Assembly (NCBI RefSeq): GCF_900103165.1
Contig: NZ_FNKY01000001.1
Coordinates: forward strand, 124,001 to 188,000
Length of the DNA: 64,000 nucleotides
Direction: 5' to 3'
Source: Nitrosospira multiformis
GTDB lineage: Bacteria; Pseudomonadota; Gammaproteobacteria; Burkholderiales; Nitrosomonadaceae
Made by a program: the position numbers and the translations under genes. This document shows, piece after piece, positions 541-8,553 of the stretch; position 1 is the stretch's first letter; the number at the start of each line of letters is the position of its first letter. A model generated the notes under the pieces. That model saw only the letters and a list, made by a program, of their open reading frames with translations. It was not told the DNA's origin and ran no database searches.

Positions 541-1176
541 ATGCTACAACAGCAATTTCCCGAAAAAACTTTGTTTGGCGGTATCGCGTCTGTATTAATG
601 CTTGGCTTATTAAGCATTCACGCTACTTCAGCGGACGCACTAGATTCCAATTACGCCAAATTCAACAAGAAAGGAGAACTGGTTCGTCCAACTCACTACC
701 GAGAGTGGATTTTTGTAGGTGCGCCCGTTACACCCAATGACATGAACGACGGTAAGCCGGCATTTCCTGAGTTCCATAATGTCTATATTGATCCTGCCAG
801 TTGGACGTATTGGAAAAGGACCGGGAAGTTCCGTGAAGGCACTATTTTTGTCCTGGAAATGGTCAGCGTTGGTGCCAAGAAATCAGTAAGTGGAAATGGA
901 TATTTTCAAGGGGAATTTCAGAGCATTGCGGCAGCGGTGAAGAGCAAAAAGCGCTTCCCCAATAGAACGGAAAATTGGGCCTATTTTGGCTTCGATGATA
1001 AACCAACAGCGGTGGCACAACCTGACGAAGCATGTGCAGCGTGCCACAAGGCGAGTGCTGCCGAAGATATGGTCTTTACTCAGCATTACCCGATATTGCG
1101 TGCGGGTAGGCCGGCGGAGAAATCTAAGACGCGGGGACTCGGTCAGGACAGTATCGATATCCAGCGCGGCAAGTAA
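541..1176 (+). CDS. Cytochrome P460 family haem protein, exported
   Basis: A 211-residue protein with a hydrophobic N-terminal signal segment (about residues 11-34) and one haem c attachment motif, C165-A-A-C168-H169, near the C-terminus as in the cytochrome P460 / c'-beta family. P460 enzymes of ammonia oxidisers act in the periplasm on hydroxylamine and nitric oxide; whether this one has the lysine-haem crosslink cannot be judged without an alignment. The start at 541 is chosen because AAGGAG (529-534) lies 6 nt upstream; a TTG at 535 is in frame but too close. It is distinct from the lipoprotein P460 homologue at 55110. It sits between a decayed sbtA leader and a MITE, so its original transcription context has been altered. 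Confidence 0.85.
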   Translation: MLQQQFPEKTLFGGIASVLMLGLLSIHATSADALDSNYAKFNKKGELVRPTHYREWIFVGAPVTPNDMNDGKPAFPEFHNVYIDPASWTYWKRTGKFREGTIFVLEMVSVGAKKSVSGNGYFQGEFQSIAAAVKSKKRFPNRTENWAYFGFDDKPTAVAQPDEACAACHKASAAEDMVFTQHYPILRAGRPAEKSKTRGLGQDSIDIQRGK

Positions 1177-2823: not shown

Positions 2824-2839
2824 TGTGGAGTTGCCCCTA

Positions 2840-3739
2840 TTAAACCGGACAGGATGCGGTTAGTAACTGGCTGCGGATGAATTGTCTTGGTGACTTCATC
2901 TTCAGCCCCTTGTGAGGATGGTATTCATTGTAGTCCTCGAACCATTGGTCAAGCAGTGCCATCACGGTTTGTGCATCGGGACGGTCATGCACATAGACAT
3001 AATCCCGTTTGAAGGTCTTGACGAAGGCTGCGGCCATGCCGTTGGATTCGGGACTTCGGATCGGAGTGAAACAGCTGATGAATCCCATATCCTGGGCAAA
3101 AGCTCTTGTTTCTGTAGCGGTATAACAGCTGCCGTTGTCGCTGAGCCATTCCACCCTGTGCGGGAGTCTGTTAATGGTTCCGAAGCGCCGCTCGACGGAT
3201 TCAATCATCAGATCGCGCACCATCTCCCCGGTAATGCCGCTGGTGGTGGCCACATGGCTGATGACCTCCCGATCGCAGCAGTCCAGCGCAAAGGCGACCC
3301 GCACCACCTGTTCATTCCAGCAGGCAATCTCGAACCCATCCGAGCACCAGCGCAGGTTGGAACGCAAGGTAATCACCTTGCCTTCATGCGACCGTTGCGG
3401 TTGCTTGCCGGCATGCCGGGTCAGCAGCAAACCATTCTGGCGCATGATGCGATAGACCCGCTTGTGATTGACCGCAGGCTTGCCCATCTCCTCCAGCCTG
3501 CGGTTCAGCAGGGCGCAAATCCTGCGATAACCGTAAGTCATGCGACAATCCACAAGCTCGCGGATCAAGAGCAACAACCAGGCATCATCGGCCTTGTAGT
3601 AGCGACCACTGGCTGACCGTGTTTTCGGCTTCATCCGTTCCACCAGATGGGATCGTGCCACGCCCATCGTGTCAGCAATGGCTTTCATAGGATATCGTCC
3701 TGTGGCAGCAAGGGCATGCGCGAGATCAGTTTTTTTCAT
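2840..3739 (-). CDS. IS3-family transposase OrfB (integrase core)
   Basis: A 299-residue DDE transposase. Visible catalytic blocks are WCSDGFEI (first Asp), WLSDNGSCY (second Asp) and SPESNGMAAAFVKTFKRDYV (Glu region), with the usual HTH-like YGYRRICALLNR segment before them. ATG at 3739 overlaps the end of orfA; an in-frame TTG lies at 3745. Relative to orfA this frame is +1, not the -1 used by most IS3 elements, and the overlap includes a run of seven A (3730-3736 on the complement), so translational coupling or polymerase slippage may be used. Confidence 0.9.
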   Translation of the reverse strand: MKKTDLAHALAATGRYPMKAIADTMGVARSHLVERMKPKTRSASGRYYKADDAWLLLLIRELVDCRMTYGYRRICALLNRRLEEMGKPAVNHKRVYRIMRQNGLLLTRHAGKQPQRSHEGKVITLRSNLRWCSDGFEIACWNEQVVRVAFALDCCDREVISHVATTSGITGEMVRDLMIESVERRFGTINRLPHRVEWLSDNGSCYTATETRAFAQDMGFISCFTPIRSPESNGMAAAFVKTFKRDYVYVHDRPDAQTVMALLDQWFEDYNEYHPHKGLKMKSPRQFIRSQLLTASCPV

Positions 3740-4079
3740 GAGCAAACTTCACCGCTTCCGTGAGAATCTCGTTCTCCAGGGTCTTCTTGCCCAGCACCCG
3801 CTCCAGCTCTCGAATTCGCTTCTTCAGCTCCCGGACCTCGGCTGCGGACACCACCGCATCATCGCTGCGCACTGCTTCCTGCCCTCCTTCAACCATGAGC
3901 TTTCTCCAACGAAATAACAAGCTGGGAGCAATACCATATTTTCGCGCCACATACGAGACACTCATTCCCGGCAAGCGGGATTCTTCAACAGCTTTCAATT
4001 TCTCGCCCAGACTCCAGCGCCTGCGGCGCTCGACTCCGGTGGCGACTTCAATGCGATCAAAACCAGAAGCACTATGCAT
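3726..4079 (-). CDS. IS3-family transposase OrfA (DNA-binding subunit)
   Basis: A 117-residue protein with a helix-turn-helix (WSLGEKLKAVEES, VSYVARKYGIAPSLLFRWRK) followed by a leucine-zipper-like coiled coil (VRELKKRIRELERVLGKKTLE), the layout of IS3 OrfA proteins. It ends HEKN at a stop in the A-rich overlap with orfB. The start at 4079 is the ATG just inside the right terminal repeat. Confidence 0.88.
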   Translation of the reverse strand: MHSASGFDRIEVATGVERRRRWSLGEKLKAVEESRLPGMSVSYVARKYGIAPSLLFRWRKLMVEGGQEAVRSDDAVVSAAEVRELKKRIRELERVLGKKTLENEILTEAVKFAHEKN

Positions 4080-4269
4080 AGTACCAGGCTTATGCCTATC
4101 TCCTATTATCAGCGCATCCGTGTCCGGTTCAATTGGGGGCTACTACAATCCAATCGCGGCTCATCAAAATGACAAACGGATGCATCCGATCAGGAATGAT
4201 GGTGTTGACGCATTGCCACTTATAACATTTATAACATTGACAAATTAGTCACAGTTTCAAAAGCTTTTC

Positions 4270-4297
4270 TTGACAAGTGGTATGTTAACTTTATCCG
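4270..4297 (+). promoter_or_regulatory. Upstream copy of the sbtA promoter
   Basis: TTGACA at 4270-4275 and TATCCG at 4292-4297 (16-bp spacer). It drives a leader with a partly paired TTCCATG...CATGGGAA hairpin (about 4319-4356), then AAGAGGAG and an ATG at 4400. The motif is shared with the copies at 235 and 4502; the -10 is weak, so the call rests on conservation between copies. Confidence 0.5.
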
Positions 4298-4399
4298 CAA
4301 TTCATTCCGGCTCTAATAATTCCATGTACCCATAAAACTATCTTGCATGGGAAGCCGATAAGTCCAGGTAGTTAATTTTATTATAAGAGGAGTGTAACA

Positions 4400-4480
4400 A
4401 TGTCGATCTCCAGTCTTCTCGTACCAGCAATACTCTTTTTTGCCCTTGGTATGTTCGCATGCATCATCAAGTCGGATTAG
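4400..4480 (+). CDS. 26-residue truncated SbtA peptide made by the duplication
   Basis: ATG at 4400 is preceded by the same AAGAGGAG ribosome site as sbtA and encodes the first 25-26 SbtA residues (MSIS...FACIIKSD), one hydrophobic helix, then a TAG at 4478-4480 created by the duplication junction. It would be translated as a single-span membrane peptide if the upstream promoter fires. It could be a leader peptide by accident, since it ends 151 nt before the true sbtA start, or simply a by-product with no role. Confidence 0.5.
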   Translation: MSISSLLVPAILFFALGMFACIIKSD

Positions 4481-4501
4481 CCACAGTTTCAAAAGCTTTT
4501 C

Positions 4502-4529
4502 TTGACAAGTGGTATGTTAACTTTATTCG
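4502..4529 (+). promoter_or_regulatory. Proximal sbtA promoter
   Basis: TTGACA at 4502-4507 and TATTCG at 4524-4529 with a 16-bp spacer, about 100 bp upstream of sbtA. A leader with a TTCCATG/CATGGGAA inverted repeat (about 4551-4588) and AAGAGGAG at about 4617-4624 follows. The conserved leader hairpin in all copies suggests a post-transcriptional role such as mRNA stabilisation; no T-tract is present. Confidence 0.5.
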
Positions 4530-4631
4530 CAATTCATTCCGGCTCTAATAATTCCATGTACCCATAAAGCTATCTTGCATGGGAAGCCGATAAGTCCAGG
4601 TAGCTAATTTTATTATAAGAGGAGTGTAACA

Positions 4632-5612
4632 ATGTCGATCTCCAGTCTTCTCGTACCAGCAATACTCTTTTTTGCCCTTGGTATGTTCGCATGCATCATC
4701 AAGTCGGATCTGAAGTTTCCACCCGACATGCACAAGATGATCGTTATCTACTTGCTGATCGGGATTGGTCTGCATGGCGGCAAGGCGCTCGCCACTTCAA
4801 ATATGGGTGATGCCCTTCCTGCCGTGTGGGCGGCGCTCGGGTTTGGCGTTGGCCTGCCTATCATTGCTTATATTATTTTGCGGGGCATCGGAAGGATCGA
4901 CCCGCTGAACGCCGCAGCCATCTCGGCGCATTACGGTTCCGTGAGCGCGGGTACCTACATGACGGCGGTGGCATTCCTGGGCGGCATCGGCGTGACCTAT
5001 GAAGCCTATCCCGTGATCATGCTGGCGATCATGGAATCTCCCGCGATCATGATCGGCCTGGTCCTGGCTGGCTATTCCCGGAAAATCATGGGGGGGGCGC
5101 AAAAGGGCGAAAAGGGAATGATGAAGCACCTGATGATCGAGGCCTTTACCAATGGCAGTATTCTGCTGCTGTTCGGCTCCATGGCGATCGGGGCGGCAGT
5201 GTCGGACACGAGCTACAAAAAAATCGAACCGTTCTTTGAAACAATCTTTATGGGCGCCTTATGCATATTCCTGGCCGATATGGGTATGGAAGCCGGGAAA
5301 AGGCTGTCGGAATTTAAGAAGGTAGGCGTCTTCCTGGTCGGTTTCGGCGTAGTGATGCCTTTGATCGGCGCTTTTTTCGGGATAATGGTAGGTCACTACT
5401 ACCTCCAATACTCAATCGGCGGTGTCACCCTGGTAACGGTGCTGGCGGCCAGTTGTTCCTATATCGCGGTACCGCCGGCTATGCGTCTGGCGATACCCGA
5501 GGCCAACCCATCTTTCTATCTGACGCTGTCGCTCGGGTGTACTTTTCCGTTCAACGTGGTGATCGGAATCCCCCTGTATTATGCAGGTGCCCAGTATCTG
5601 GCCGGGACCTGA
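4632..5612 (+). CDS. sbtA: SbtA-type sodium-dependent bicarbonate permease
   Basis: A 326-residue, highly hydrophobic protein with about ten membrane spans and the SbtA family layout: two five-helix halves, glycine-rich segments such as GIGLHGGKAL and ISAHYGSVSAGTYMTAVAFL, and a second-half repeat ASCSYIAVPPAMRLAIPEANPS. The family imports HCO3- with Na+ across the inner membrane; in an autotroph this feeds Rubisco. GAGGAG lies 7-8 nt before the ATG. It is followed after 57 bp by the CPII-like gene, the usual sensor partner of SbtA-type permeases. Promoter and leader are duplicated upstream, which could raise expression. Confidence 0.88.
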   Translation: MSISSLLVPAILFFALGMFACIIKSDLKFPPDMHKMIVIYLLIGIGLHGGKALATSNMGDALPAVWAALGFGVGLPIIAYIILRGIGRIDPLNAAAISAHYGSVSAGTYMTAVAFLGGIGVTYEAYPVIMLAIMESPAIMIGLVLAGYSRKIMGGAQKGEKGMMKHLMIEAFTNGSILLLFGSMAIGAAVSDTSYKKIEPFFETIFMGALCIFLADMGMEAGKRLSEFKKVGVFLVGFGVVMPLIGAFFGIMVGHYYLQYSIGGVTLVTVLAASCSYIAVPPAMRLAIPEANPSFYLTLSLGCTFPFNVVIGIPLYYAGAQYLAGT

Positions 5613-5669: not shown

Positions 5670-5999
5670 ATGACGTTAAGAGCAGACATTTTTATTTCCA
5701 TGAAACGGATTGAGATTGTTGTGGATGAAGAATCGCTGGAAGAGCTCATCGACTTGTGCCAGGAAGCCCAGATACGCGGCTATACAGTCATCAAAAAAGC
5801 GGGCGGCCTGGGATCCCGCGGAGAACGCAACCCCGAAGACTATTCTCTTGAGGAAGAGAATGCCGTGATGGTTGTAGCCTGCGGGGAAGAACAGGCGGAG
5901 AGGCTCATCATGCTGCTTCGCCCCAAGTTGAAAGACTGGGGAGGAATGTGCCTGGTTTCCGATTGCCAGTGGGTCATAGGACCAGCGGCCTCATACTAG
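5670..5999 (+). CDS. CPII/SbtB-like PII-type signalling protein
   Basis: A 109-residue PII-fold protein (MKRIEIVVDEESLEELIDLC... then GYTVIKKAGGLGSRG... and a late beta strand LVSDCQWVIG). It lacks the classical T-loop uridylylation tyrosine context of GlnB and fits the CPII group described from chemoautotrophs, which binds adenine nucleotides and bicarbonate and is encoded beside SbtA-type transporters. It probably gates SbtA according to carbon and energy status. The start at 5670 has AGAGGA upstream; an ATG at 5700 is an alternative that removes MTLRADIFIS. The stop TAG (5997-5999) is formed by the TA target and first G of a MITE, so the last residues may differ from the ancestral C-terminus. 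Confidence 0.82.
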   Translation: MTLRADIFISMKRIEIVVDEESLEELIDLCQEAQIRGYTVIKKAGGLGSRGERNPEDYSLEEENAVMVVACGEEQAERLIMLLRPKLKDWGGMCLVSDCQWVIGPAASY

Positions 6000-6152
6000 G
6001 GCCTGTTAACGCTTATTTCGCACCCGCAACGGCGATAGATTTCATCCAGCACGAGGCATGAGCCGCGCGGCGGAGCAGGCCTCTGTAAGCGGCGAGTAAC
6101 GAAGGGCTGGATGAAATCCGTCCCGTCCCTTCGGGTTACTCACAAAAAAACG
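5999..6152. repeat. MITE-like element, truncated copy
   Basis: It begins with the same terminal repeat as the copy at 1228-1408 (GGGCCTGTTAAC, one change to GCTTAT) directly after TA (5997-5998), and matches the reverse complement of that copy up to ACAAAAAAACGC near 6152. The last 28 or so bases, including the second terminal repeat, are missing. The two copies are in opposite orientation and bracket the IS30-IS3-sbtA-CPII block. Confidence 0.85.
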
Positions 6153-6711: not shown

Positions 6712-8553
6712 GTGTCGCAGGTGAAATTAAGCAGCAAGCTCGATCGCCCGGTCGATAACGACTACGATCATATGCTCGGCCCGGAGAATGCTGAAATCAC
6801 TCTCGTGGAGTATGGGAGCTACGCGTGCCCGCATTGCCGGGCTGCGAATGAAAGGATCGCTCAGGTTCGGGATCAGTTGGGTGATCGCCTTCGTTACGTC
6901 TTCCGGCACTACCCATTAACTGGAAGCGATATTGCTCGCAGGGCTGCCGAGTTGGTGGAGCATGCGAAAGACACTAAAGCCTTCTGGGACGCGCACATCG
7001 CGTTGATGACACGTTCGGAAGCGTTGACGGAAGAGGATTTGATTGCCGTTGCCAGCGATCTGGACGTGCCTCTGCCTGACGTTGGTGAGGCTAGCGAAGC
7101 CGACGAGCGTGCCAAGGCGCGCATCCAGGCCGACGTAAAGAGCGCCCAGGTCAGCCACGCCTTGGTCACACCGACGTTCTTTATCAATGGTCGCCGCTAT
7201 GATGGCCCTTGGGATGAAAGTTCTTTCACCGACGCGATGCTCGGTGGCCCCAGCCAAAGATTGCAGGGCTTGGCGCTCGACTTCGCCGGTTGGGCGCCTT
7301 CGGCGGGCGTCCTGCTTCTGCTGGCGACGATACTCGCCGTGGCATTGACAAATTCCAGTCTTGATGCCGGCTTCCTGGCGTTGTGGGAACAGTATCTGAG
7401 TATTTCAATCGGCGGTGCCGAGTTCAAGATGTCCTTGCTCCACTGGATCAACGATGGCTTGCTGACAATCTTCTTTCTGGTCGTGGGACTGGAAATCAAA
7501 CGCGAATTTACCGTCGGCCGCCTCGCCAGTATACGATCGGGAGCCCTGCCGGTTGCTGCGGCTGTCGGCGGCATGGTGGTGCCGGCGATCCTTTATGTGC
7601 TGCTGACACCCGCAGGAGCCTGGTCGCACGGGTGGGGCGTTCCGATGGCCACAGACACGGCGTTCGCCGTGGCGCTGATCGTGATGATGGGAAACCGCGT
7701 ACCGGCCGAGCTGCGCGTCTTCCTGACGGCGGCGGCTATCGTCGACGACATCGGTGCAATCATCGTTGTAGCAATCTTCTACTCCGGCACAATAAACTTC
7801 GGCTATCTCGCGGGCGCCGCGGCCACTGTTGCGGCGCTGGTTCTCCTCAACCGCATCCGCGTCTATAACGTCACGCCCTACGTCCTTCTGGGCGTCGTGC
7901 TCTGGGCCTGCGTGCTCGCAAGCGGACTCCACGCCACCATAGCGGGCGTGATCCTGGCGCTGTTCATTCCGACGAGGCCGCCCCCGAATCTGACGGCGTT
8001 GATGGTCCAAGCAGACGCGATCCTGACTACCGAAGCACAACGTAGCGGCGAGGTGCTGCGGCACGGTCCTTCTCTTCCGGCTATTCGAGCGCTCGACGCC
8101 ATCCACGATCGCCTGGAATCGCCAGCCGATCGCCTGCTGCGAAACGCTGGCGGCCGTTCGAGCTACGTTGTGCTGCCGCTGTTCGCCTTGGCTAATGCAG
8201 GAGTCGCGCTTACGGCGGATGCCCTCACCGCCCATGAACCTCTTATGCTTGCGATTATCGTAGCATTGGTGATCGGCAAGCCCCTGGGATTGGTGTCGGC
8301 ATCGGCGATTGCAGTGCGGCTCGGAATCGCCACCAAGCCTGACGAATATTCATGGCGGCAATTAATCGGAGCCGGCGCACTGGCCGGGATCGGTTTCACT
8401 ATGTCGCTGTTTATCGCCAGCCAGGCATTCCCGGCAGAGAGCGATTTCGCTGCGGCCAAGATCGCGGTATTTGCCGCTTCAATAGTATCTGCGATCCTCG
8501 GCGTGGCTATCTTGTGGAACGCGGACAGGCGGCGCGGACGAGGCAGCCCCTAG
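6712..8553 (+). CDS. nhaA: NhaA-type Na+/H+ antiporter with N-terminal DsbA-like domain
   Basis: A 613-residue fusion. Residues 20-180 are a DsbA-like thioredoxin fold with C39-P-H-C42 and a cis-proline loop at T153-P154; residues 195-605 are NhaA, with the transport aspartates in PMATD315 and VD345-D346 and the GKPLGLV lysine segment. NhaA exchanges external H+ for internal Na+ and controls pH and salt. Similar thioredoxin-NhaA fusions are known in other bacteria, with the thiol domain presumed to sense or reduce disulfides. The GTG start at 6712 is supported by GGAGG (6700-6704) 7 nt upstream. It stands alone, with relics on both sides and G+C-rich codons compared with the IS zone, consistent with transfer. 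Confidence 0.9.
   Translation: MSQVKLSSKLDRPVDNDYDHMLGPENAEITLVEYGSYACPHCRAANERIAQVRDQLGDRLRYVFRHYPLTGSDIARRAAELVEHAKDTKAFWDAHIALMTRSEALTEEDLIAVASDLDVPLPDVGEASEADERAKARIQADVKSAQVSHALVTPTFFINGRRYDGPWDESSFTDAMLGGPSQRLQGLALDFAGWAPSAGVLLLLATILAVALTNSSLDAGFLALWEQYLSISIGGAEFKMSLLHWINDGLLTIFFLVVGLEIKREFTVGRLASIRSGALPVAAAVGGMVVPAILYVLLTPAGAWSHGWGVPMATDTAFAVALIVMMGNRVPAELRVFLTAAAIVDDIGAIIVVAIFYSGTINFGYLAGAAATVAALVLLNRIRVYNVTPYVLLGVVLWACVLASGLHATIAGVILALFIPTRPPPNLTALMVQADAILTTEAQRSGEVLRHGPSLPAIRALDAIHDRLESPADRLLRNAGGRSSYVVLPLFALANAGVALTADALTAHEPLMLAIIVALVIGKPLGLVSASAIAVRLGIATKPDEYSWRQLIGAGALAGIGFTMSLFIASQAFPAESDFAAAKIAVFAASIVSAILGVAILWNADRRRGRGSP

Follow-up and report, generated by a model that had tools for sequence, protein, structure and literature searches.

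Proteins of the SbtA family carry out sodium-dependent transport of HCO3-. In Nitrosospira multiformis, the leader and first codons of one sbtA gene occur twice, head to tail, in front of the intact gene, and this raises the question of whether the strain has recently doubled a promoter or carries the remains of some other rearrangement. A sequence-only reading of the locus had favoured the former, namely a fresh duplication that stacked two sbtA promoters and might have been selected for transporter dosage. Here we analyzed the locus within a window of 64,000 nucleotides (G000:C1:124001-188000), which lies in a 3,474,980-base contig of a genome that is assembled into 2 contigs and is 99.91% complete. 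Coordinates refer to this window unless stated otherwise, and its features are listed in Table 1.

Tandem Repeats Finder reported a repeat at 4244-4709 with a period of 232, 2.0 copies, 98% matches, no indels and a score of 904. When the two units were aligned, 228 of 232 positions matched, and the remaining four (copy 1/copy 2: 4249/4481 T/C, 4295/4527 C/T, 4337/4569 A/G and 4372/4604 T/C) separate uninterrupted identities of 5, 45, 41, 34 and 103 nt, which is far above chance. The copies are adjacent, run head to tail and have clean ends, as in a simple tandem duplication, and the AT at their junction is common to both parent sequences, giving a 2-bp microhomology. TTGACA, GAGGAG and ATG are each present in both units. 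In copy 1, the ATG opens an ORF that translates as MSISSLLVPAILFFALGMFACIIKSD, the first 26 codons of SbtA, and stops at a TAG created by the junction. In these respects the previous reading, which had described a 232-bp tandem with about four differences and a truncated 26-codon SbtA with its own ribosome-binding site, was borne out. The hairpin that it had placed in each leader gained no such support. Although a CCATG/CATGG stem does fold in each leader, single leaders (z = -0.14 and -0.15) and the double leader (z = -0.14) fold no better than shuffles, and a structured RNA leader or riboswitch was rejected on this ground. No conserved upstream mini-ORF was seen in the 32 named sbtA loci.

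Table 1. Features of the duplicated sbtA front end and its surroundings (window coordinates; R1, model of the operator-like element described in the text; P1 and P2, putative promoters)
Feature	Position	Strand	Evidence
Degenerate sbtA leader and 5' fragment before cytochrome P460 gene	257..478	+	79.7% over 241 columns to 4523-4762
IS3-family element, ends approximate	2824..4145	-	NF033516 transpos_IS3, 213.3 bits (cut-off 160)
Two 9-bp-spaced TTATAACA-type repeats upstream of operator	4220..4236	+	leader alignments
Complete operator-like element and promoter P1	4237..4291	+	R1, 57.8 bits, model positions 1-55
Tandem unit, copy 1	4244..4475	+	repeat finding, copy alignment
Truncated SbtA ORF, 26 codons, junction TAG 4478-4480, SD GAGGAG 4387-4392	4400..4480	+	translation
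Truncated operator-like element and promoter P2	4469..4523	+	R1 at 4476-4523, model positions 8-55, 44.7 bits
Tandem unit, copy 2: leader plus 76 nt from the start of intact sbtA	4476..4707	+	copy alignment
sbtA copy B, SbtA bicarbonate transporter family, 326 aa	4632..5612	+	PF05982, E 6.8e-107
sbtB copy B, PII-like partner, 109 aa	5670..5999	+	PF00543, E 2.5e-11

Next, we considered what kind of promoter had been repeated. TTGACA had previously been taken as a -35 box. However, no plus-strand sigma-70-type match with a -10 hexamer 16-18 nt after TTGACA was found in 4080-4720; the two sigma-70-type matches in this interval, compared with 2.1 expected from shuffles, lie on the minus strand. 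A -10-like TATGTT (4281-4286 in copy 1) follows TTGACA after just 5 nt. In view of the missing -10 at the proper spacing and the short gap, TTGACA was rejected as a probable -35. Instead, it forms the last of a set of four repeats phased at 11 bp, which in the P1 element are, in order, TTGACAAATTA, GTCACAGTTTC, AAAAGCTTTTC and TTGACAAGTGG, and is probably a repeat of an operator-like element. Promoters of the OmpR/PhoB family have 11-bp-phased direct repeats that end just upstream of the -10. The present element resembles them in having four 11-bp units, the last of which directly adjoins TATGTT, and in the OmpR-type regulator gene found near CO2-uptake genes; it differs from typical OmpR/PhoB repeats in that its third repeat is degenerate and binding is only predicted. 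Because putative cbbR, cbbLS and cbbX genes precede sbtA in the relative genome G012, a CbbR site was considered; this reading was set aside after the 11-bp register had been recognised and a response regulator found close by.

Leaders aligned from part of the genus contained one block that was more conserved than the remaining leader. A seed pattern derived from this block matched in 9 of 23 genus genomes, and the reversed control in none of the 23. Nineteen sites were placed in register, and most of them consist of four 11-bp units followed by TATGNTAAYTT; the exceptions are L066 and L076, which are without the repeats, and one further site, which is copy 2. Fourteen distinct sites align gap-free in the 11-bp register ending in TATGNTAAYTT, and a sequence-only model, R1, was built from 14 of the 19, with the P1 site inside the training set and the copy-2 site outside it. 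Because the pattern that selected the training sites already contained TTSAC and TATG, the 3' half of R1 is partly circular. Searching with R1 (150 candidates scored per genome) gave matches in all 23 genomes at E<=0.05, several of them weak. Matches at E<=1e-6 numbered 36, including the 14 training sites and 2 sites identical to training sites, and 35 of these start within the first two model positions, whereas copy 2, the one remaining match, starts at position 8.

Downstream of the examined R1 sites lie, among others, sbtA, SulP, a putative carbonic anhydrase, an OmpR-type response regulator and a gene of a second SbtA type together with its sbtB. Several R1 sites precede genes without a clear carbon-uptake link (DUF2490, two proteins, of 133 and 533 aa, without a Pfam match, and a presumably RND-like protein). 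The site at G000 1915399 is 637 nt from the nearest listed ORF, and no obvious gene lies near the sites at G000 1903687 and G012 1004812. At E<=0.01, R1 matched none of 13 tested loci outside Nitrosospira and Nitrosovibrio, and therefore the element is not general to sbtA. It is a conserved, operator-like element that in Nitrosospira stands before inorganic-carbon uptake genes and some others.

The duplication damaged this element in the inner copy. Because the duplicated unit starts at 4244, inside repeat 1, copy 2 is without R1 model positions 1-7, and its repeat 1 is replaced by AAGTCGGATTA, which consists mostly of sbtA codons 24-26. In repeat 2, GTCACA reads GCCACA through the T to C change at 4481, the sole change private to copy 2, and repeats 3-4 and TATGTT are intact. 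The 9-bp-spaced TTATAACA-type repeats found twice before copy 1 occur three times in the paralogous sbtA leader (A, described below) and are absent before copy 2. Given the loss of repeat 1 and the change in repeat 2, P1 and P2 are probably unequal, the outer promoter P1 being the main one and P2 probably supplying basal or weakly regulated transcription. The copy-2 site outscores many other R1 sites, and with its 44.7 bits, intact repeats 3-4 and intact -10, P2 may be fully active. Of the two stacked promoters proposed earlier, two promoter-like copies are thus present, but their equivalence was not supported (44.7 versus 57.8 bits).

As to what might bind the element, the OmpR-type response-regulator gene has an orthologue in 22 of 23 genus genomes. 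Of the 11 genomes that gave no sbtA match, 10 also have it, so its occurrence is not linked to sbtA only. Among the 12 genomes that did give one, it lies no more than about 13 kb from an R1 site in 11, the exception being G015, an 80%-complete draft. A second ORF follows the regulator, with sbtA/SulP-type genes near, in the four regions examined (G000, G016, G001 and G012); a domain search, in G000 only, identified it as a histidine kinase. The G000 region (C1:1302816-1311500, L137) contains the response regulator, the histidine kinase, a putative carbonic anhydrase, the second SbtA type, sbtB, an HTH_33 winged-helix gene and SulP, and has R1 sites before the carbonic anhydrase/sbtA genes and before the SulP genes. 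From this gene neighbourhood, on which the pairing of regulator and element rests, we infer that the element may be an operator bound by the OmpR-type response regulator. A more extended proposal, which we advance tentatively and rate at somewhat below an even chance, is that one OmpR-type two-component system acting on the four-repeat operator would control inorganic-carbon uptake in Nitrosospira (sbtA-sbtB, the second sbtA type, SulP and a carbonic anhydrase) and that the duplication would have split this operator in the present strain, with sbtA-B run both from a distant intact promoter via a stub-ORF leader and from a partly freed inner promoter.

The intact gene behind the tandem was then compared with its relatives. 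Its PF05982 (Sbt_1) match spans profile positions 1-307 of 308, and the closest SbtA proteins among the named loci are from Nitrosospira and Nitrosovibrio, followed mostly by Nitrosomonas. As in known SbtA/SbtB pairs, the PF05982 gene is followed by a 109-aa PII-like gene; unlike them, two pairs and relics occupy one locus here, and transport is predicted from the family only. The second complete pair (A) spans about -2796 to -1117 in window coordinates, ~7 kb upstream and hence outside the window, beyond the reach of the sequence-only reading; tblastn gave it the same layout as pair B, and the two SbtB proteins are 73% identical. Another SbtA-family gene, of the second SbtA type, is also present in the genome. 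Between sbtA-A and sbtA-B there are synonymous third-position changes at codons 51 and 56, codons 57-325 are identical, and the last codon and stop differ, so that the proteins differ solely in the last residue. Past the last shared codon the spacers hardly align, and sbtB DNA is 74.6% identical.

Quartet tests with G003 and G012 as outgroups gave opposite results for the two genes: in sbtA, 79 informative sites group A with B and 2 and 1 favour the other pairings, and in sbtB, 28 group A with G003 against 5 and 4. In a midpoint-rooted SbtB protein tree, a 24-row clade (support 97/92) contains B and not A. Paralogues are thus closer than orthologues in sbtA and the reverse holds in the neighbouring gene, as expected of gene conversion. 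This near-identity of sbtA beside diverged sbtB in the quartets and the tree leads us to conclude that sbtA was homogenised between A and B by recombination, of which gene conversion is the simplest form. A and G003, compared in 60-nt blocks, are 80-97% identical per block over the spacer, sbtB and beyond and 77-83% over the final 540 nt of sbtA, which is only suggestive of B having overwritten A. Concerted evolution of the amoCAB, haoAB and cycAB paralogues in Nitrosomonadales is described in PMC6053082. As in the account given there, near-identical paralogues lie within one genome beside diverged sequence, as gene conversion predicts; in contrast to it, sbtA is homogenised here and its partner sbtB is not. 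Words starting with sbt, bicarbonate or transporter do not occur in the main text of that paper.

Several neighbours of the pairs were also noted. A small HTH protein (MARPxTGREFVxAAK...) is encoded downstream of sbtA-sbtB in 7 of 8 Nitrosospira pairs with listed ORFs (L022:8981-9493, L137:16192-16683, L138:11690-12181 and others), pair B being the one without it; its HTH domains are transposase-like, yet its position is conserved. About 700 bp after sbtB-B, at 6712-8553, lies a fused DsbA-like thioredoxin and NhaA sodium/proton antiporter, for which a sodium link to the sodium-dependent transporter is possible. A MITE-like element, recognised by inspection and with terminal inverted repeats GGGCCTGTTAAC..., occurs at 1226-1412 and 5997-6149. 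With 40 of 59 candidates scored, it has at least 32 genome matches of at least 87 nt, at least 30 of them of at least 153 nt. Its copy at 5997-6149 lies directly against sbtB-B, and the end of the element falls on the sbtB-B stop TAG.

The duplication had been supposed to be fresh. The copies differ at none of 78 ORF positions and at 4 of 156 leader positions, and the latter figure does not support this supposition. The leader of paralogue A shows 6 differences from copy 1 and 4 from copy 2, and A and G003 are 80-83% identical over leader blocks. Copy 2 equals A at three leader sites where copy 1 alone deviates, and the two copies agree against A at three other leader sites; the C at 4295 is common to copy 1 and the fragment at 257-478. 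On these comparisons, the duplication is young at the scale of the species but not at that of a culture. No tandem sbtA leader was found in any of the 32 named loci, four of which had self-matches of 20-91 nt at least 1.4 kb away. Likewise, no second match beside sbtA was found in 11 genus relatives, in 7 of which the match starts near or after the start codon, so that a diverged repeat could have been missed there. Recombination between the copies may make the tandem unstable, and a single-copy subpopulation is plausible because repeat-mediated loss of one unit would restore the complete element before the gene.

The truncated ORF is not the only sbtA remnant. The fragment at 257-478 has an ATG at 352, a 25-codon ORF with its stop at 427-429 and similarity to SbtA residues 17-45, has no R1 match at E<=0.01, and is probably a relic of a further sbtA unit. 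In G016 a cytochrome P460 gene directly follows sbtA-sbtB. In G003 an sbtA leader with its start codon is fused, right at the edge of the homology (7487/7486, L057), to sequence beginning at the end of an HTH gene that in unit A lies behind sbtA-sbtB. Operator-region fragments (69 and 73 nt of similarity) also occur at G000:C1:1915399 and 1903687 without sbtA behind them. An sbtA 5' stub is therefore not unique to 4400-4480. The IS3-family element sits ~90 bp upstream of the P1 element, and IS2 models scored it below their own cut-offs. Paralogue A has the flanks of this insertion without the IS (A -2897..-2812 matches 2740-2823, and A -2796.. matches 4146..). As a separate observation, the cytochrome P460 genes at window 541-1176 and L138:10719-11372 adjoin sbtA-sbtB or relics.

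Taken together, the repeated front end most likely arose either by a tandem duplication that was close to neutral or as what a deletion left of another sbtA unit. The former is our best explanation, held with moderate confidence. Illegitimate recombination at the 2-bp microhomology would have duplicated 232 bp, from the operator interior to sbtA codon 26, head to tail, in an sbtA-sbtB locus that paralogue homogenisation and IS insertion have also shaped. Copy 1 retains the complete element and P1 and encodes only the 26-residue stub, and copy 2, which would drive intact sbtA, leaves P2 with a truncated operator. The bulk of the sbtA mRNA would then probably start at P1, near 4293, and carry a doubled leader of ~340 nt with a translatable stub ORF, against ~107 nt from a start near 4525 at P2, the probable source of basal or weakly regulated transcription. 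We infer that the stub peptide would be non-functional and the duplication close to neutral.

Because other sbtA 5' stubs exist, a deletion relic has to be taken seriously as a rival to duplication in one step, although we rate it as less likely. Here, a deletion from codon 26 of an earlier sbtA(-sbtB) unit to the next operator would have left the stub without any 232-bp duplication, much as a relic was left before P460, a gene that follows sbtA-sbtB in G016, and as a leader in G003 was joined at a homology edge to sequence that in unit A lies behind sbtA-sbtB; moreover, the two full pairs show that duplication at the scale of whole units has occurred in the locus. However, this would require two events rather than one, the copies, with 4 differences in 232, are closer to each other than to 257-478, and no trace of a third sbtB was found in the 19-kb stretch searched.

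Compared with either of these, we regard it as improbable that stacked promoters were selected for higher SbtA dosage under low bicarbonate. The genome does retain two near-identical sbtA genes and another SbtA type, and TATGTT, GAGGAG and repeats 3-4 are kept in both copies; a role of dosage as such is thus possible, but nothing ties the 232-bp repeat to it. On the contrary, the inner element has lost one end and has a further base substitution in repeat 2, all that copy 1 can encode is a stub, and the tandem is absent from all 32 named loci. A literature search on adaptive promoter duplication returned nothing relevant, and selection for dosage as the cause is unproven. Finally, an assembly artefact concealing a single leader copy is very improbable, since, despite three near-identical copies of the segment within ~7.4 kb (a known short-read assembly trap), the two tandem copies can be told apart at 4 sites, both show differences of their own from A, and the genome is in 2 contigs. 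The near-neutral tandem duplication therefore remains our preferred account. Because the inner copy has lost part of its control site, we read the duplicated front end as probably a relic in a repeatedly reshuffled transporter locus and not a fresh doubling of promoter strength.

A full-text search found no paper on Nitrosospira with SbtA in the collection covered, and no title among the matches listed for related literature concerned such a regulator. The duplication, the relics and the paralogue homogenisation are events of known kinds, and the homogenisation of sbtA without sbtB extends to this locus a pattern known in this order for ammonia-oxidation genes (PMC6053082). As such, the duplication is illegitimate recombination of an ordinary kind; its value lies in the new lead that it exposes on inorganic-carbon uptake in soil ammonia oxidisers, namely the conserved operator-like element with a two-component system as its candidate regulator. 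Pair A, with its intact element, and pair B, with its split element, offer a ready natural comparison in which SbtA differs at the last residue. If the proposed control by one OmpR-type system is true, then this strain would come with its own natural promoter mutant and, next to it, an intact paralogue that encodes nearly the same protein.
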